Shown: piece after piece, positions 14,402 through 44,978 of the stretch
How positions within the stretch are numbered: the stretch's first letter is position 1
Layout: every line of letters begins with the position of its first letter
From: Acidimicrobiaceae bacterium
GTDB lineage: Bacteria > Actinomycetota > Acidimicrobiia > Acidimicrobiales > Ilumatobacteraceae
DNA length: 64,000 bases
Reading direction: 5' to 3'
NCBI GenBank assembly: GCA_003569125.1
Contig: BGOG01000005.1
Span: forward strand, 1 to 64,000
The notes under the pieces: model-generated
What the model was told of the DNA's origin: nothing
Databases searched by the model: none
Seen by the model: only the letters and a program-made list of their open reading frames with translations
Translations under genes and position numbers: made by a program

Positions 14402-16129
14402 CTACTTAGTTGACCAAACACCTGTCCAGTCAATTCCGAAGTTTGTTACCAATCGTCGTGGGCCACCTGCAGCAAGCGGCAATTCGCCAACTCCACCGAG
14501 GTTTTTGTACGACAATGAGTAGGCCAGCATCGAAATGTTGGTTACATGAGCTTCAGCCTGAATTTGCGCTGTCGCCTGCTGGTAAAGCTTCTTCTTCTTC
14601 GCCATGTTCGATTCACCACGGGCTGCGAACAACAAGTTCTCGCTCACAGTGTCTTTGAACGATGAAATGTTCAAGATTCCGAAGTAAACAGGAAGTCCCT
14701 TAAGTGCAGGAACTTTCGCCGCAATCTGCGTGATGAAGTGGTTTGGGTTTCCAGCAGACATGTCACTAACCAAGAATGGAAGAATGAAACCAGTTCCGGT
14801 TCCTTCCATCAAAAGCAGTGGCAACATTTGGTATTGCATTGGGAATGCCTTAGCAATTGCCTCTGCTGTCGTTTGTGACAACAAGTTCACTTTGATCCCG
14901 GCTGCTGCACACATCTGTTGAATCAAAATTGCGTTTGCAGTTGCATCAGCAGAAGCACTTACATACGGAAGACTGAATTCAAGGTCTTTGCCTGTTTCTG
15001 TCTTGTAGGCAGCCACATCAGCTTTCGCTGCTGCAAGATCAAAGCCTGCGTAGTTCTTCTTGTTGTACATGATGTTGTTTGGTCCAACGATCGAATCTGG
15101 AACCATGCCCAAACCTTTTTGGCGAACCTTCAACCACTTCTCACGGTCAAGTGCATGAGAAAGTGCGAGACGCGCATTCTTGCTGCTGAACGGAGCAATC
15201 TTGTGGTTCATCCAAATTGTTGGGTAATAATCAGTCGGCGAAATAATCGTCGTAATGTTTTTGTTCTTCTGCAGATCTTTGATCTGCTTTGCTTCGGTTG
15301 CCGAAGTGAACATCGTTGCCGCAAGCGAACCGCTCTTCACACCGCTGACGCGTGGTTGCGCATCTGGCAAGAAAGTGAATGTGATTCCGTCGAGGTATGG
15401 CAACTTGCCACCCTTGGCATCTTTGCGCCAGTAGTCAGGGTTGGCTGCAACAACAAGTTTTGTCAACTCAGTTGAAACCAACTTGAACGCACCAGTACCA
15501 ACTGGCTTGGTTGAACAATCTGCTCCAAGAATTTGGCTTGGCGCACGAGCGAAGAAACGACCCGATGCATAAAGCGATTCTGGATAATCAGACTCTGGTT
15601 GGAACAAAGATACTTGCACCGACATTGCGCCAATTGCAACGACGTCTTGGATGTTTGCAGTGAAACCTACTGCGGTGCCAAGTTTGCCGGTGCTCTTTGG
15701 TGTTTTGCCAATCAAGCCGTTGACGTAAAGCGCTCCGCGCAAAGCCTGAATGTTCAGCAACAATGCTGTTGCATCTACAGGAGTACCATCATGGAACTTG
15801 ATTCCGTCACGAACTGTTAACAACCAAGTTTTGTTGTCTGCGCTGTGCTCGAATGATTTCAACAAGTAAGGAACAATTTTGCCGTCGGCTCGTTGCTCAA
15901 CCCATGTTTCATAAATTGTGCGAGCACCCATGAGTGACGAGTTCGCCAGGTTGTCTGCCATGCAGTAGCCAGGGAACGAGTCGAAAATACCAACTGTGAT
16001 ATTTCCCCCACGCTTTGGAGTATCTGCACCAGCAGCACCACTGCTTGATACTTGTGTAAGTGATGCAACAAGTGCGATTGCCATTACGGCAACAACCTTG
16101 CGACGACCACCAGTGAATATGCTCTTCAT
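14402..16129 (-). CDS. Peptide-type ABC substrate-binding protein, copy 1
   Basis: An SBP_bac_5-family extracellular binding protein of 575 residues. The N-terminus MKSIFTGGRRKVVAVMAIAL followed by an Ala/Ser-rich cleavage region is a Sec signal peptide with no lipobox cysteine. Family features are RGGNITVGIFDSFPGYC at the mature start, YETWVEQRADGKIVPYLLKS, TWLLTVRDGIKFHDGTPVDA and ALSHALDREKW. A strong ribosome-binding sequence (AGGGGGAAA) precedes the ATG. It is the intact member of a tandem pair with the gene at 16408-18135. It sits directly before its permeases, so it is likely the main ligand receptor. The ligand is unknown. Confidence 0.9.
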   Translation of the reverse strand: MKSIFTGGRRKVVAVMAIALVASLTQVSSSGAAGADTPKRGGNITVGIFDSFPGYCMADNLANSSLMGARTIYETWVEQRADGKIVPYLLKSFEHSADNKTWLLTVRDGIKFHDGTPVDATALLLNIQALRGALYVNGLIGKTPKSTGKLGTAVGFTANIQDVVAIGAMSVQVSLFQPESDYPESLYASGRFFARAPSQILGADCSTKPVGTGAFKLVSTELTKLVVAANPDYWRKDAKGGKLPYLDGITFTFLPDAQPRVSGVKSGSLAATMFTSATEAKQIKDLQKNKNITTIISPTDYYPTIWMNHKIAPFSSKNARLALSHALDREKWLKVRQKGLGMVPDSIVGPNNIMYNKKNYAGFDLAAAKADVAAYKTETGKDLEFSLPYVSASADATANAILIQQMCAAAGIKVNLLSQTTAEAIAKAFPMQYQMLPLLLMEGTGTGFILPFLVSDMSAGNPNHFITQIAAKVPALKGLPVYFGILNISSFKDTVSENLLFAARGESNMAKKKKLYQQATAQIQAEAHVTNISMLAYSLSYKNLGGVGELPLAAGGPRRLVTNFGIDWTGVWSTK

Positions 16130-16407: not shown

Positions 16408-18135
16408 TTACTTCGTTGACCAAACACCTGTCCAATCAATTCCGAAGTTTGTTACCAATCGTCGTTGTCCACCTGCAGCAAGCGGCAATTCGCCAACTCC
16501 GCCAAGGTTTTTGTACGAGAGCATGTAAGAAGTTCTCCAGAGTGAAGTAAGGCGAGCTTCGGCTTGAATCTGCGCAGTTGCATCCTGATAAAGCTTCTTC
16601 TTCTTCGCCATGTTCGATTCAGCACGAGCTGCAAACAACAAGTTCTCGCTCACGGTGTCTTTGAACGATGAAAGGTTCAAGATGCCGAAGTAGGCCATGT
16701 ATGGCTTAACAGCAGGAACTGCAGCAGCAGTTTTTGTGATGAAATGATTTGGGTTTCCACCAGACATATCGCTAACCAAGAATGGAAGAACGAAGCTAGT
16801 TCCGGTTCCTTCCATCAACAGAAGCGACATCGCCTGATATTGCTGAGGGAACGCTTAGTAATGATCTCAGCCGTTGTTTGTGGCAACACGTTCATTTTAA
16901 TTCCGGCTGCCTCCAGCATCTGTTTGATCAGCGTTGAGTTTGCAACGTCGTCAGAAGATGCTGTGTTCACAGGGTAAGTGAACTCAAGATCTTTACCAGT
17001 TTCTGCTTTGTAAGCAGCCACATCAGCTTTCGCTGCTGCGAGATCAAATCCTGCAAAGTTTTTCTTGTTGTACATGATGTTGTTTGGTCCAACGATTGAG
17101 TCTGGAACACTGCCCAAACCTTTTTGACGAACCTTCACGAACTTCTCGCGATCCAAAGCATGCGAAACTGCGAGACGCGCGTTCTTGCTGCTAAAAGGAG
17201 CAATCTTGTTGTTCAACCAAATTGACGGGTAATAGTCTTCTGGCGACATGATTGACGTCACTGATTTGTTCTTTTGCAAATCTTTCATCTGCTTAGCTTC
17301 TGAAGCCGACGAGAACATTGTTGCTGCAAGTGAACCGCTCTTCACACCGCTAACGCGTGGTTGCGCATCTGGCACGTAAGTAAATGTGATTCCGTCGAGG
17401 TATGGCAACTTGCCGCCCTTGGCATCTTTGCGCCAGTAATCAGGGTTTGCGGTAACAACAAGTTTTGTCAACTCAGTTGAAACCAACTTGAACGCACCAG
17501 TACCAACTGGTGTAGTTGAACAAGTCTTACCAAGAAGTTGACTTGGAGCACGAGCGAAGAAAACGACCCGATGCGTAAATTGATTCTGGGAAATCAGACT
17601 GTGCTTGAAACAAAGTTACTTGCACCGACATTGCGCCGGTGACAACTACATCTTGCACGTTTGCAAGGAAACCTGTTGCGGTTCCAAGTTTGTCTGCTGA
17701 TGCCGGTGTCTTTTTAAGCAATCCGTTAAAAAACAATGCACCGCGAAGTGCCTGAAGGTTGAGAGCCAATGCTGCACCATCTACTGCTGTGCCGTCATGA
17801 AACTTCACTCCATCGCGAACTGTTAGCAACCAAGTTTTATTATCTTCACTATTCGCCCATGATTGGAGCAAGTAAGGAACAATTTTTCCATCGGCTCGTT
17901 GCTCAACCCATGTTTCATAAATCGTGCGAGCACCCATCAATGAAGAGTTAGCGAGGTTGTCGGCGGTGCAATAGCCAACAAACGCGTCGAAAATACCAAC
18001 TGTGATATTTCCCCCACGCTTTGGTGTATCTGCACCAGCAGCATTACTGCTTGATACTTGAGTAAGCGATGCAACAAGTGCAATTGCCATTACGGCAACA
18101 ACCTTGCGACGACCACCAGTGAATAGTTTCTTCAT
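16408..18135 (-). CDS. Peptide-type ABC substrate-binding protein, copy 2 (two frameshifts)
   Basis: A tandem paralogue of copy 1, with near-identical signal peptide, mid-region and C-terminus. The start is ATG 18135 (MKKLFTGGRR) with the same AGGGGGAAA ribosome-binding sequence. The frame is broken twice: an extra A in the run at 17560-17563 (copy 1 has three), and a missing C near 16854. From start to stop both copies span exactly 1,728 bases, so the two indels cancel, as expected of sequencing errors in an intact gene. Copies differ mostly in the C-terminal ligand half, including the region around 16500-16700, so ligand range may differ. Confidence 0.85.
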
Positions 18136-18283
18136 TTTTATTTCCCCCTTCGGAAAAGGCACTTTGCCCGCATCAAAAGTAACCCGATCTGTCGAATGGC
18201 TATGTCGTTTATCACGTGTCACTTGTCGCTTTGAGAACTTGTGATTATTTTCAAGTATTATTTTTTAATCTTGAATCAGTTTT

Positions 18284-23747: not shown

Positions 23748-24187
23748 ATGACCTCCCATGAGATGACGAGCATTGAAAGCCCAGCCACAAAACGTATCGC
23801 ACTTGTGGCTCACGACAATATGAAACGCGAAATGCTTGAATGGGCAACCGAACACAAAGAAGAACTTAAACGGCACGTATTAATCGCCACAGGCTCAACT
23901 GGAAAATTGATTGCCGACAGCACTGGGTTGACCCTCGAACGCATGCGCAGTGGGCCACTGGGTGGCGATCAACAAATTGGCGCGCGAATTTCTGATGGTG
24001 GCATTGATGTGTTGTTATTTTTTGGGATCCACTTGAACCGCAACCGCATGACCCCGATATTCGGGCATTGTTACGCATCGCCGTGGTCTGGAATATCCCG
24101 GTGGCTTGCAATCGTGCCAGTGCTGACTTTATTTTGAGTTCGCCTCTGATCGGCTCGCCGTATCAGCGGCGCGTGCCGAAATATTGA
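23748..24187 (+). CDS. mgsA: Methylglyoxal synthase, one frameshift
   Basis: MgsA converts dihydroxyacetone phosphate to methylglyoxal, a bypass of lower glycolysis when phosphate is short. Motifs are [29 protein letters not shown] and the active-site block [14 protein letters not shown] missing T in the six-base run at 24018-24023 ends the frame at 24137. Restored, it reads [38 protein letters not shown] and ends at TGA 24185-24187 (PYQRRVPKY). ATG 23748 and 23763 are both possible starts. No ribosome-binding site is visible, so the mRNA may be leaderless. Confidence 0.88.
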
Positions 24188-25769: not shown

Positions 25770-25896
25770 TTCCCTAGTCTTACTGGTTTTGAGTCGGCGA
25801 GTCCATCCGCAAACCTGTGACAAATCTCAATCTGCTCGCAATTTACACATACTGTTAAAACTCCCGCAACATAACACTCGTATAGTTAGTCTCATT

Positions 25897-28575
25897 GTGA
25901 AAGCCGATTTCGTATATTTTTTGGGCAACTCGGCCGCTACTAGTGCAAACGGTGGCCTTGACATCAGCCGTGTTTTGCTTGATTTGGCAATCATTTTGAT
26001 CGTCGCCAAGGTCGCTGCCGAAATCTCTGACAGATTGGCGATACCGGCGGTGATCGGCGAAATCTTGGCCGGAATATTGATCGGTAATTCGGTATTTGGC
26101 TTGGTAAATACGAACGAGATTTTGTATGTGATGTCCGAACTTGGTGTAATTATTTTATTGTTGCAAGTTGGTCTTGAGACTGACGTCGTCGAATTGAAAA
26201 ATGTTGGTCGCGCGTCACTATTTGTTGGCGTAATCGGTGTTGTTGCGCCGATGGTTTTGGGCATCGGCACCGGCTTTTTGTTCGGTAACGAGATTATGCC
26301 GTCACTATTCTTAGGCGCCGCACTAACTGCCACAAGCATCGGCATCACCGCTCGAGTTTTTGGTGACTTGCGCGCATTAGCCACAGTTGAGGCGCGAATC
26401 GTTCTTGGCGCGGCTGTGGCGGATGATGTCTTGGGTTTGATTATTTTGACGGTAATCACACGCATCGTTGAACGCGGATCAGTTGGCATTGGCACAATCG
26501 CTTCGACGACAGCGCTTGCTGTTGTGTTTCTCGTTATCACCAGCACAATTGGATTGGCAATATTTCCTGCTCTGTTTTCAAGAATTGCAAAACTTAGTAA
26601 ATCATCTGCGACGATTCCGGTTGTCGCAATTGGTATCACGCTTGCATTTGCTGTGCTGGCCGACGCCGCGCATCTCGCGCCAATCATCGGAGCCTTCGTC
26701 GCCGGGTTTTCATTGCGTCGCATTGTCGCACACGAACGTGTTGAACGAGATGTCAACTCGCTGGGTCAAATTTTCATCCCGATATTTTTTCTCAATATCG
26801 GTATCAACACCGATATCTCAAGCATGGCGAATGCAAAAGTTCTCGGCATCGCCGCTGCGTTAAGCGCAGTCGCCATTTTTGGAAAACTAATTTCATCAGT
26901 CGGGGCTTTCGGTGTGAGAGCCGACAAATTAGCAATCGGTGTTGGCATGTTGCCTCGCGGTGAAGTCGGTTTGATTTTTGCGACAATCGGTCTGCGCACC
27001 GGCGTTCTTGACGAGGACTTATACGGCGCACTTTTGGTTGTAGTGCTAGTAACAACATTGATCGCCCCACCACTGTTGCGTTGGCGCCTAGGAAAAGAAC
27101 TATCAGCGACTGATGATTCTGATTTAGTTTCTCAACAACCTGCGAATGGGTGGATTTCTGTCGACGAGGGTGTCATATCGTTAAACAGCACTCCACCAGT
27201 GAGCATGCTCGTCGAACTCGGGCTTGATACTGCGCTGCTCGTATCTGATGCTCGGCCCAGTGACAAGATGCTCGACTGGTTCGCGCTTCATCGAAATGCA
27301 ACCCTCAGTTGGAGCACGCAAGACACGATCGGTTTGCTTCGCGTTCTGCGTTATGGCTCGGCTCGATCGTGGCGATTTCTTGACACGATTGGTTTAATCT
27401 CACGGGCGCTACCAGAAGTTGCCAGTGCAATGTCGGCACGATCAAGTGATGCAACAGAACTCGACCCAACACATGCCCTTCGATTCGCAACGGTTGATGC
27501 AGTTTGTTCAAACGCATCACTTGCGACGACCGAATCAGACGAAATAGTTCTTGCCGCCTTCGCCAAAGATATAAATGATGCTGGAGCCGATTGGGCGCAG
27601 GCGATTCGCCGCCTCGATTTGGATCTTGCGACTACTTCTGAAATTGCTCTGCTGGTTGAAGGCAGTGCGATGCTTCAATCAATAACTCAGACTGAACCGT
27701 TGCAAATAACAAATCGATTAGTCACTCAGATCGCAAATCATCTGAAAAACCCAAAGACCGTTGAACAATGTCGACAATTGTTGATCGCCCGCGACAACCT
27801 GGGTGAAACGCAACAGCTTGCGTTGATCGAAATAATCACCAGCGTCCAAGAAGTTCTCGCCCACCCAGATTTGATTGACTCAAGTTCTAATGACCCATTC
27901 GAAGTGCGATTACGGGCCGCACAAGCCCTTGCAACGGACACAAATATCCATGCGCGAATCGCCAACGCACCGGCAAGTTACGTGCTGACGCACTCAGCCG
28001 AAGAACTCGTTCGTCATGCCGAATTGGTTGAGCCGCTTCCGCGCGCTGGACATGCACGAGTTGCGGTTCGAAGAACAGCGACCGACGAACATCAATGGAT
28101 GATCAACATTGCGATCAAAGACCGCTCCGCATTATTGGCCCGATTATCGGGTGCGCTTGCATCGCTTGGGTTAAATGTGATCAACGCCGACATTGCAACC
28201 TGGCCAGACGGCGCGGTTCTCGACACATTCATTGTGCGCAGTGCACAAAAACCAAACTTGGCGTCACTAGATGGTGCGGTTAGCGACGCACTCCGCGGGC
28301 GAATTACAAATGTTCAACGGGGTTCATTAAATCTTTCAGTAACAATTGATCAGAGTGCGCACCCGTGGCATTCGATCGTACGCATTGAAGGCGCTGACCG
28401 CCAAGGATTACTGCGGGATATCACCGCGGGCTTGGCACGAAGCAAAATAGTCATCCACCACGCCAAAATCTCAACTATTGATGCGCAAGTGCACAACGAG
28501 TTCGAGGTTTCAGATCGTCTTGGACGAAAAATTTCGCTTCAAGCCTGCGAACGTGTGAGGCGCGCACTTCGTTAG
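25897..28575 (+). CDS. Kef/CPA2-type cation:proton antiporter fused to a GlnD-like HD-ACT-ACT tail
   Basis: The predicted start is GTG 25897 (VKADFVYFLGNS), giving 892 residues. Residues ~20-400 form a CPA2 exchanger with about twelve membrane helices, ending RVLLDLAIILIVAKVAAEIS, the ion-site region GAAVADDVLGLIIL (the DD pair), ADAAHLAPIIGAFVAGFSLR and GMLPRGEVGLIFATIGLRTG. Residues ~490-715 resemble the central part of GlnD: WRFLDTIGLISRALPEV, then HALRFATVDAV (cf. HxYTVDxH) and LAAFAKDIND in place of LLHDIGKG. YVLTHSAEELVRHAEL matches the GlnD linker before ACT1. ACT1 is at ~732-790 (KDRSALLARLSGALASLGLN) and ACT2 at ~824-884 (ADRQGLLRDITAGLARSKIV). The HD metal ligands look lost. The inferred role is an antiporter controlled by nitrogen or amino-acid signals. 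It is divergent from acyl-CoA dehydrogenase. Confidence 0.85.
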   Translation: MKADFVYFLGNSAATSANGGLDISRVLLDLAIILIVAKVAAEISDRLAIPAVIGEILAGILIGNSVFGLVNTNEILYVMSELGVIILLLQVGLETDVVELKNVGRASLFVGVIGVVAPMVLGIGTGFLFGNEIMPSLFLGAALTATSIGITARVFGDLRALATVEARIVLGAAVADDVLGLIILTVITRIVERGSVGIGTIASTTALAVVFLVITSTIGLAIFPALFSRIAKLSKSSATIPVVAIGITLAFAVLADAAHLAPIIGAFVAGFSLRRIVAHERVERDVNSLGQIFIPIFFLNIGINTDISSMANAKVLGIAAALSAVAIFGKLISSVGAFGVRADKLAIGVGMLPRGEVGLIFATIGLRTGVLDEDLYGALLVVVLVTTLIAPPLLRWRLGKELSATDDSDLVSQQPANGWISVDEGVISLNSTPPVSMLVELGLDTALLVSDARPSDKMLDWFALHRNATLSWSTQDTIGLLRVLRYGSARSWRFLDTIGLISRALPEVASAMSARSSDATELDPTHALRFATVDAVCSNASLATTESDEIVLAAFAKDINDAGADWAQAIRRLDLDLATTSEIALLVEGSAMLQSITQTEPLQITNRLVTQIANHLKNPKTVEQCRQLLIARDNLGETQQLALIEIITSVQEVLAHPDLIDSSSNDPFEVRLRAAQALATDTNIHARIANAPASYVLTHSAEELVRHAELVEPLPRAGHARVAVRRTATDEHQWMINIAIKDRSALLARLSGALASLGLNVINADIATWPDGAVLDTFIVRSAQKPNLASLDGAVSDALRGRITNVQRGSLNLSVTIDQSAHPWHSIVRIEGADRQGLLRDITAGLARSKIVIHHAKISTIDAQVHNEFEVSDRLGRKISLQACERVRRALR

Positions 28576-28624
28576 GTCTTGCTTCGTTAGTGGCAGAGCT
28601 TGCCCGACAGCCTAAAGTTCAAGC

Positions 28625-29814
28625 ATGACTTTGACAGATAACCCGCCCGTTGCAACTGAACGTTGGACACATCAATGGAAAGAACTTTACGAGGAGGTAA
28701 TCAATACTGGCTTGTGCACCGGGTGTGCGGCGTGCGTAATTTCTTGTCCGCATGATGTGATCGGTTATGAACATGAAGAGGGTAAGTACAAACCATTTCA
28801 TCTAGAAGAAGATCTTGGTCTCGATAATTGTGGTCACGGCGAAAAAGGTTGCACAAGTTGCACACGAGCATGCCCGAGATTTCGTGCTTGGGAGCCTGAG
28901 GCAGATATGCACCTGTTTGGTCGTGAACGCAAAGATGAAGAATGTATGGGCAGTACAGGCAACTTCTAATGGTGCGTGCCGCCGACGAGCAGACTCACAA
29001 AAGAGGCCAAGACGGTGGATTCGTTGGTGCGATGTTGATCTGGTTGTTGAAACACGACTATATCGATGCGGCGTTGACGAGTTTTGTTGAAGGTGACGGA
29101 TCTTCTTGGAAGGCGTTGCCTGGTCTCGCACGCACGCCTGAAGAAGTGCTCGCGTCTTCAGGAAGTCGCTACACATATTCGGCGAATACTTTGGCGATTC
29201 GTGATGCCGAAAAAGAGGGGTTGAAGCGTATTGCTCTCGTGGGCATGAGTTGTCAGTCTTCGGCATTGCCGATCATGTGGAAGCGCAAAGCCGGAAAGAT
29301 TGGCAAACCATTTTTGTTCAATATCGGTTTGCTTTGTTCAAAAACTTTTGACGATGCAATTTTCGAAGAATTGTTCTTGGCGAAATATGGTTTGAAAAAA
29401 GAAGAAATGGTCAAGATGAATATCAAGGGCGTGTTTCAGATTTGGATGCGCGACGGCTCGTATCACGAAATTGATCTGAAAGAATGTCACAAATGGACTC
29501 GCGAGGGTTGCAAGATGTGCCCAGACTTCGCGGCCGAGCACGCAGATATTTCTACCGGCGGCATCGGTGAAGATAATGACTGGACCCTGTGCGTTGTACG
29601 CACCGAACTGGGCGAAGAAGTAATGACTCGGATGATCAAAGACGGTTCGATTATTGCGCGACCAGCCGAAACAGATGCGACGGCGATGAAGCTGTTGAGG
29701 CTGTTGAGCATCGTCAGCCGTCGCCGCTGGCCTGAGTTCGCCAACAAGGCTGTCAGCGTCGGCGTACCACCGCCCAAGAAAAAAGCCGATGGCACTTTGC
29801 CAGCGGCGCATTAA
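28625..29814 (+). CDS. FrhB/F420-hydrogenase-beta family iron-sulfur flavoprotein, one frameshift
   Basis: A family whose members move electrons between ferredoxin-like clusters and F420, flavin or quinone partners. The N-terminus has two four-Cys sets: CTGCAACVISC at residues 31-41 and CGHGEKGCTSCTRAC at ~69-83, enough for two 4Fe-4S clusters. After a frame break at the G run 28948-28950 (one G missing), YRQLLMVRAADEQTHKRGQD and GGFVGAMLIWLLKHDYIDAA match the FrhB C-terminal domain. Further Cys sit in VGMSCQSSALP and EGCKMCPDF. Product about 396 residues. Whether it binds F420 here is an inference. It follows the antiporter gene by 49 bases. Confidence 0.8.
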
Positions 29815-42849: not shown

Positions 42850-44040
42850 TCAACCAATATTTAGATTTTCACCAAGAGCGACTAATCCATTTATGTCCGC
42901 GATATCGGTCTCAAGCATCGGTACGGCCACAAAATTATCGGCGAACCCAGCGACCCGGTCTAATAATGCAGACTGCATTACAGAAATCTGTGTTGTTACC
43001 TGTGCATAGTTTTCGATTGTCGCCAAGGTTTGTGTCACCAATTTTGAGAGACTCTGGTCATCAATGCCCGCAGAAAATTCTTCTTTGCTCAACAAATCCG
43101 TGAGTTCGCTGACCAGAGCAGTGTCTTGCAATAACTTGTTTAGATCTTGTACCTGCTGGACAAGTGCATCACCCTGAAGTTCTTTCGGAATCACTCGATT
43201 CGCAATCGCCAAATTTGTCGAGAACTTACGCTCTTTGAGCGCCGCGCTGAGAAATTCGGCTTCACTAAGCGGTGCATCTTCAAGCGTTGTAACGACCGCA
43301 AACGAAGTTTTAGGGTCGTGCAGCAATGCCTCGACTTTTTTGGCTCGCTCGACAAAACCGGTCTCCATTGTTCTAAATAAAGTAAAAAATTCGGCGACAT
43401 CCCGCAATAACCCCTTGCCGAGTAGACGGTCGGCGATTTCATAAAACGGTTTGGCCGCGAGCGCGAGTAACTGCCATTGCGAGTTTGCCGTCAACAACTT
43501 AAGTAGTCGACTCGAGAAGAAGTCCTGCATGCGTTTTGGGGCGTCTAAAACAGTCAGGGCATTGCGTGAAGGCGGAGTGTCGACAATTATCAGGTCGTAA
43601 GCACCACAAGAGTGCGCCTGATACAAGCGTTCAATCGCAATGTAATCGTGGCTGTGCACGAACCTCTCAGTGAGATTTTTGTAAAGCGAGTTCTGTAGCA
43701 CGCTGTTTCGCGTTGCTTCATCGGGTGCATGGCGGGTGATCAATTCATCCCAACTTGCTTTTGTGTCGATCATCGCCGCCGCTAATGATCCGCGCAACTT
43801 TGTCTTGCTTGTTTTGAACAAATCACGAGTGATCTGCACTTCGGCATTACCAAATTCGCTGAGCCCGAGCGCATTGGCGAGTCGCTTGGCAGGATCGACC
43901 GTCAAAACCAACACGCGCTTTTCGGTTTGAGTTGCCGCCAGCACACCTAATGCAGCCGAAACTGATGTTTTACCAACTCCACCTGAGCCGCAGACAACGA
44001 TTAGCCCATCGCGTTGAATCAAATCTGCAACCGTTGTCAC
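42850..44040 (-). CDS. ArsA/GET3-like ATPase, second of a pair
   Basis: A P-loop ATPase of the ArsA superfamily, 396 residues. Walker A is CGSGGVGKTSVSAALG, the adenine/switch I region has VLTVDPAKRLANALGL, and LIIVDTPPSRNALTVLDAPK is switch II-like. The rest is helical. Actinobacteria often encode two adjacent paralogues (Rv3679/Rv3680 type). The GTG start at 44040 overlaps the stop of its partner by four bases, so the two proteins likely form a heterodimer. Cargo and role are unknown here. Confidence 0.88.
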   Translation of the reverse strand: MTTVADLIQRDGLIVVCGSGGVGKTSVSAALGVLAATQTEKRVLVLTVDPAKRLANALGLSEFGNAEVQITRDLFKTSKTKLRGSLAAAMIDTKASWDELITRHAPDEATRNSVLQNSLYKNLTERFVHSHDYIAIERLYQAHSCGAYDLIIVDTPPSRNALTVLDAPKRMQDFFSSRLLKLLTANSQWQLLALAAKPFYEIADRLLGKGLLRDVAEFFTLFRTMETGFVERAKKVEALLHDPKTSFAVVTTLEDAPLSEAEFLSAALKERKFSTNLAIANRVIPKELQGDALVQQVQDLNKLLQDTALVSELTDLLSKEEFSAGIDDQSLSKLVTQTLATIENYAQVTTQISVMQSALLDRVAGFADNFVAVPMLETDIADINGLVALGENLNIG

Positions 44041-44978
44041 GAGAGTTCTGCTTCAAGTTCGCCCGACAATTTGTTGACAAGAAAATCAGTCGGCTGATAA
44101 GAAAAATCTGGTAGCAGTAAAAATTGGTTTATTGGTTTGAGTTGGGCGAGCCCACTGCGAAAAGACGCAATGTGTTGTGTCGCCAGATTGCGTCTGGCCC
44201 GGGCCAAGCCTGTCGCCTGGAGCGAAAGATCGATGCTTGAGCCAAGTTTTTGAACAATGAGTGATTTTGTTGCAGCCTGATTTAATTGACTGAAAACTAG
44301 TTCTTGTGACTTTGTAAAAATTTCCGTGGGCACACGATTGACCACTACTGCTGCAGTATCAACCTTTGTTTTTGTCTGCAATGCCTCGACTAGTTCTAAG
44401 GCCTCGTTTACGGCCATCTCTTGACAAGTTGTCACAACCACGACCCCGGTTTTTTGTGGGTCTTCAAGAATCGCGGTCATCCACAATGTTTGTTCGTTCA
44501 ACGGCCCGAGTGGCACAAAATTGCGCAGTGTCGTTGGCGCCGCTACCTGAGCCACAATGTGTCCGGTTGATTCGGCATCAACGATCACTATGTCGTAGTT
44601 GCCCTTGCGAACTTCGTAACAAAGTTTGCCGACGACTAGCACTTCTTTTACTCCGGGTGCGGCATCGGCAACGAAATCGAATATTCCGGCCAAACCAGGA
44701 ATCGCCGCGACGAACGGAGTCTTCAAAAAAATAGAAACATACTCACGCAGAGCGTCTTGCGTATTCATTGTCATTGCCGACAAATTCGGTGAGATCTCGC
44801 GCGGAGTAAAACTCAATTCACTTGTTTGAAGCAAATTTGATAGCGCGCCTTTGGCGTCCATCTCGCACAGTAAAACCCGTTTGCCTTGGGCGACCGCCGC
44901 TCGACCAAGAGATGCGGCAATAGTTGATTTACCGACGCCACCCTTTCCAGTGATGAAGAGAAGTTGACGGTCTAACAA
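44037..44978 (-). CDS. ArsA/GET3-like ATPase, first of a pair
   Basis: A 313-residue partner ATPase. It begins MLDRQLLFITGKGGVGKSTI with the deviant Walker A (TGKGGVGKST), then VLLCEMDAKGALSNLLQTSE and YDIVIVDAESTGHIVAQVAA as the switch II region. The start is a TTG at 44978, with no better ATG near. It is likely to act with the product at 42850-44040. Placement after DUF3107 and near whiB resembles mycobacterial arrangements. Confidence 0.88.
   Translation of the reverse strand: MLDRQLLFITGKGGVGKSTIAASLGRAAVAQGKRVLLCEMDAKGALSNLLQTSELSFTPREISPNLSAMTMNTQDALREYVSIFLKTPFVAAIPGLAGIFDFVADAAPGVKEVLVVGKLCYEVRKGNYDIVIVDAESTGHIVAQVAAPTTLRNFVPLGPLNEQTLWMTAILEDPQKTGVVVVTTCQEMAVNEALELVEALQTKTKVDTAAVVVNRVPTEIFTKSQELVFSQLNQAATKSLIVQKLGSSIDLSLQATGLARARRNLATQHIASFRSGLAQLKPINQFLLLPDFSYQPTDFLVNKLSGELEAELS

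Follow-up and report, generated by a model that had tools for sequence, protein, structure and literature searches.

RCK, cyclic-nucleotide and voltage-sensing domains have been described on CPA antiporters. In KefC, SOS1 and SLC9C1, a cytosolic domain controls the antiporter: Kef combines an RCK domain with glutathione and K+, SLC9C1 has a cyclic-nucleotide and voltage domain, and GlnD or ACT domains are used by neither of these nor by SOS1. The CPA2 Na+/H+ antiporter NapA of Thermus thermophilus (PDB codes 4bwz and 5bz2) has been solved as chains of about 390 residues that carry no regulatory tail. GlnD, the PII uridylyltransferase/uridylyl-removing enzyme, contains a nucleotidyltransferase domain followed by a neck, an HD-like bundle and two ACT domains, and the ACT domains inform its HD and transferase sites of amino-acid status. 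The layout of a nucleotidyltransferase followed by a helical body is found, as in GlnD, in CCA-adding and poly(A) polymerases. GlnD-like ACT repeats without a uridylyltransferase occur in plant ACR (ACT-repeat) proteins such as ACR11, which are not membrane proteins and contain neither an HD bundle nor a transporter (PMC12702975). Antiport under a nitrogen PTS component is exemplified by E. coli YcgO, a CPA1 K+/H+ antiporter inhibited by the separate nitrogen-PTS protein PtsN through a phosphorelay (PMC11808508).

The window analyzed here, a stretch of 64,000 nucleotides from an Acidimicrobiaceae bacterium (contig BGOG01000005.1), contains a gene in which a complete CPA2 antiporter is followed by the part of GlnD that lies after the nucleotidyltransferase, in the order neck, HD-like bundle, ACT, ACT:

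25897–28575, plus strand: fusion gene, 892 residues, NapA-type antiporter with a GlnD-like sensor tail

The fusion would follow the same principle as KefC, SOS1 and SLC9C1 and, unlike YcgO-PtsN, has a fused ACT sensor. Compared with GlnD, the nucleotidyltransferase is absent, the HD metal site is lost and an antiporter is joined on. The best reading, which we regard as reasonably probable, is that the protein is a NapA-type, probably Na+/H+, antiporter that is gated by an amino acid, probably glutamine, and works alongside ammonium uptake independently of PII.

The gene is a single uninterrupted frame with a GTG start at position 25897 and a stop codon ending at 28575. Pfam identified a Na_H_Exchanger domain (residues 34–395, E 3e-62) and two ACT domains. 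About 30 other genomes carry this fusion as an unbroken frame, and the named relatives are acIV/Ilumatobacteraceae metagenome bins. Therefore, neither two separate genes nor an assembly artefact accounts for it, and both possibilities were ruled out. An earlier note on this DNA had described an antiporter fused to a GlnD-like HD-ACT-ACT half, and this layout is borne out by the frame, by Pfam, and by the NCBIfam and profile-profile comparisons given below.

A TATAGT hexamer at 25881–25886, about 10 bases upstream of the GTG start, may suggest a leaderless transcript, and a TATAAT is found at a similar position in a related locus (L007). A GlnR-like operator upstream of the fusion was considered and rejected, with two sites observed against 0.9 expected. 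In several genera other than that of the window, a winged-helix gene consisting of a bare Trans_reg_C domain (about 90–120 residues; L073 10693–10968, L077 8274–8561) lies directly upstream of the fusion and is a possible regulator. In one metagenome relative, a frameshift interrupts the tail close to its end (L037, around 8814), and the other close relatives are intact. Downstream in the window, an FrhB-like F420 hydrogenase/dehydrogenase beta gene (28625–29814) is split into two frames (28625–28969 and 28942–29814); it is one 396-residue frame in relatives, and the split is a frameshift or an assembly error. A methylglyoxal-synthase-like gene (23748–24137) encodes 129 residues with an altered C-terminus, compared to about 146 in relatives, and is the second likely frameshift; the contig thus seems prone to indels. 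Additionally, an extracellular solute-binding protein gene (16815–18222) is broken into two frames beside an intact tandem copy (14402–16129), and two adjacent ArsA/GET3-like ATPase genes are located on the minus strand (42850–44978).

The membrane half has the following features:

25960–27090, plus strand: membrane antiporter domain, residues 22–398
26329–26340, plus strand: ATSI, residues 145–148, unwound TM4 selectivity motif
26422–26427, plus strand: D176 and D177, TM5 ion/proton-binding Asp pair, aligned with the NapA Asp pair
26884–26886, plus strand: K330, TM10 Lys, equivalent of NapA K305
26956–26964, plus strand: R354 and E356, TM11, equivalents of NapA R331 and E333

The solved structures closest to this half are NapA chains (4bwz, E 1e-67, about 40% sequence identity), with KefC at only 6e-11. 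Modeled in full (pLDDT 80.7), the protein matched NapA (5bz2) with a Z-score of 48.7 over 376 residues, compared to 33.8 for KefC. The likeness to NapA extends from the fold to the Asp pair, the TM10 Lys and the TM11 Arg and Glu: A145, T146, S147, D176, D177, K330, R354 and E356 are invariant in 28 fusion sequences, and residue 148 is Ile or Val. The protein thus has an Asp at each of CPA motif positions 6 and 7, in TM5, and the Lys of position 8, in TM10. A published CPA scheme associates electrogenic transport with the pairing of a position-6 Asp and a position-8 Lys, and Na+ with a non-polar residue at position 4, unlike the LSST of Kef (PMC6181914). The Kef signature (LSST in TM4, and Gln or Asn replacing the first TM5 Asp) is absent from all 28 sequences, which have ATS(I/V) and DD. 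Thus, the complete CPA2 membrane domain recognized in the earlier note stands, but its assignment as a Kef-type K+/H+ antiporter is contradicted by both the motifs and the nearest structure, and the membrane half is NapA-type with predicted electrogenic Na+/H+ exchange. An RCK/TrkA tail was likewise ruled out: no RCK or TrkA_N match was found in Pfam or NCBIfam, and the tail matches ACT and GlnD instead.

The tail comprises the following features:

27151–28041, plus strand: GlnD-like neck and degenerate HD bundle, residues 419–715
27565–27570, plus strand: K557 and D558, remnant of the GlnD His-Asp metal pair
28042–28311, plus strand: ACT domain 1, residues 716–805, matched in Pfam and NCBIfam
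28333–28572, plus strand: ACT domain 2, residues 813–892, Pfam ACT with its best stretch at 827–864

Residues 560–891 match positions 486–845 of the NCBIfam GlnD model TIGR01693 (E 3e-25); the score of 88.6 bits lies far below the curated cut-off of 519.4 for full-length GlnD. Alignment of a profile of 28 fusions with a profile of 15 GlnDs of the same family, using hhalign, paired residues 420–891 with GlnD 299–762 (probability 99.2, E 6.9e-20). Homology therefore starts at about GlnD position 299, and only the nucleotidyltransferase half is missing. The tail profile also aligns with residues 502–876 of E. coli K-12 GlnD (E 7e-15). The segments that had been lined up with GlnD by eye fall in order at their proposed places; for example, YVLTHSAEELVRHAE of the tail pairs with YFVRHSPNQLAWHAR of E. 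coli GlnD.

In the joint alignment, 28 of 28 fusions have replaced both His residues of the first GlnD HD motif, the His of DHT, the His of EHHLL, and the distal Asp. In the HD pair itself, the Asp is kept in all 28 sequences and the His in only three, being changed in the other 25. With these ligands absent, the pseudo-HD is not expected to be catalytic, in agreement with the inactive HD anticipated earlier.

Since the Foldseek results for the whole model were filled by antiporters, the tail was folded separately (pLDDT 88.9, pTM 0.82). Foldseek with the tail-only model gave nothing under E 0.001. In a structure search (VIA), residues 1–301 of the tail model, corresponding to the neck and HD-like part, matched the bodies and HD-like parts of CCA-adding and poly(A) polymerases with a Z-score of about 10.6, and both C-terminal domains matched ACT folds. 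The strongest match of the tail was the ACT region of the mycobacterial 180-kDa glutamate dehydrogenase (Z-score 13.2). No GlnD structure was found in the copy of the PDB searched, and a soluble pseudo-HD-ACT-ACT tail may therefore help to explain ligand sensing by GlnD.

The fusion is old and under selection. Within the genus, dN/dS is 0.03–0.04 for the membrane part, 0.05–0.08 for the pseudo-HD part and 0.08–0.13 for the ACT part. The fusion tails form one clade apart from all GlnDs included in the tree (support 100/99), the fusion is present in many genera of its class, and full fusions are found in two genomes of another class (G503 and G489). At E 1e-30, the tail profile matched 34 of 395 genomes and 25 of 184 genera in the class sample; these are upper figures, because at least three matches in family f33 are true GlnD. 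At E about 1e-45, weaker tail matches in families f33 and f67 of the class and phylum were rejected as fusions, being true GlnD where checked. It is scarcely credible that the gene is a neutral relic of an accidental fusion now being lost, an idea in keeping with a tail that is degenerate as an enzyme and missing from one relative (G043): dN/dS of 0.03–0.13 in all parts disfavors it, as does a single old clade spanning two classes.

Gene order differs from that of relatives at the following junction:

28576–28624, plus strand: junction between the fusion and the FrhB-like gene, where synteny places glnK-amt-amt-glnK in genera g2 and g25

The full order in g2 and g25 is acyl-CoA dehydrogenase (opposite strand), fusion, glnK, amt, amt, glnK and FrhB-like gene, and other genera show variants of it. 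An Amt gene adjoins the fusion, or is separated from it by one small glnK gene, in at least a dozen genera of two classes (g2, g10, g18, g21, g23, g25, g43, g53, g58, g106 and g111, with G503 and G489 in the other class). No Amt was seen near the fusion in several families. The fusion-adjacent Amts fall mostly in one clade of 25 rows (support 100/99); this clade includes the sole Amt of the window genome (C5:66167–67510, just outside the window) and the Amts of two g5 genomes tested; the few adjacent Amts outside it are those of G489, one g2 genome and the second Amts of cassettes. Among 101 family genomes, with the partner Amt type counted at 70% identity or more, 26 have both genes, nine the Amt only and 58 neither, and eight have the fusion without a detected partner Amt (Fisher p 5e-10, in a test that ignores shared ancestry). 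Of the earlier suggestion of a sensor coupling nitrogen or amino-acid level to K+ or H+ flux, the nitrogen link is backed by the conserved Amt linkage, but the Kef K+/H+ identity is not supported.

The linkage would also suit a protein that exports ammonium, namely an NH4+/H+ antiporter that high glutamine would open, working as a relief valve in the opposite direction to Amt. The nitrogen-sensing tail agrees with this proposal; the ATS(I/V)...DD...K motif, however, predicts Na+, and we consider it unlikely. It is also unlikely that the protein is simply a sodium/pH homeostasis antiporter, with a tail that senses another amino acid or only stabilizes a dimer, and with an Amt linkage that reflects shared expression and not a joint mechanism. 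The NapA signature, the many amino acids bound by ACT domains and the shortening or loss of the tail in several relatives accord with such a role, but Amt adjacency across two classes, a near-single partner Amt clade and the derivation of the tail specifically from the GlnD family speak against it.

The variants show how the parts may be separated. In genus g22 the tail is reduced to a short pseudo-HD-like piece lacking ACT domains, G179 and G263 have the antiporter with a shortened tail and no ACT domains, and G043 has the antiporter without a tail, still beside Amt. Gating therefore appears dispensable in places, which counts against the best reading, as do the eight fusion genomes without a detected partner Amt and the families with no Amt near the fusion. 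The antiporter and Amt appear to form the core pair, to which the tail is a losable add-on. Only the tail is found in G014 and G505; in G505 (L132 8530–9942), it is a free 470-residue protein with a ROK-family neighbor and neither antiporter nor Amt nearby.

That the tail can do without PII is argued most strongly by its retention where PII and GlnD have been lost. PII is present in 82 of the 101 family genomes, and 11 of the 19 genomes without it keep the fusion. Neither true GlnD nor PII was found in eight genomes of the genus of the window (g1) or in seven of g5. The glnK-amt cassette between the fusion and the FrhB gene is gone in both genera; however, the fusion is kept in four of the eight g1 genomes and six of the seven g5 genomes, and the partner Amt type is often kept as well. 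PII was also not found in G033, which keeps the fusion. These genomes bear on the proposal that the tail acts on PII, binding PII or PII-UMP and bringing it to Amt and the antiporter, or competing with GlnD, with no direct effect on transport. PII is the known substrate of GlnD and glnK adjoins the fusion in several genera, but g1, g5 and G033 keep the fusion where PII was not found, the tail in g1 is under strong purifying selection, and distant families have Amt without PII beside the fusion. We consider action through PII quite improbable.

In the mechanism that we infer, which extends to the ligand, the direction of gating, the ion and the physiological reason for the Amt pairing, the ligand of the ACT pair would most likely be an amino acid indicative of nitrogen status, with glutamine as the leading candidate. 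According to a title cited in PMC3480911, the transferase of R. rubrum GlnD is reportedly responsive to 2-oxoglutarate and not to glutamine, which counts against this ligand. As the HD and transferase sites are dead or absent, the remaining use of the ACT domains would be to move the fused membrane domain. The pseudo-HD bundle may relay ACT occupancy to that domain, replacing the ACT control of HD in GlnD, and transport would thereby be switched by nitrogen status. The partner process would be ammonium uptake via the particular Amt clade: entry through Amt and assimilation would alter cell charge and protons, and the antiporter would balance these or expel excess cation. Such control is intramolecular, and neither PII nor its uridylylation would be needed.

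No earlier description of a GlnD-derived sensor on a CPA antiporter was found among openly licensed papers, and the combination appears undescribed so far. In its fullest form, which we put forward tentatively, the protein would be a one-protein nitrogen-to-ion switch, in which a CPA2 antiporter partnering a particular Amt clade is gated directly by glutamine bound to a dead GlnD half. Its output would bypass PII and would have persisted in streamlined freshwater actinobacteria after the loss of PII and GlnD. The genera without PII and GlnD offer a natural experiment that separates the GlnD sensor half from PII control. If the proposal is true, these bacteria would link nitrogen status to ion and proton balance by a direct path that can be tested, and an antiporter with a GlnD sensor half and an Amt neighbor may tie that balance directly to nitrogen supply without PII.
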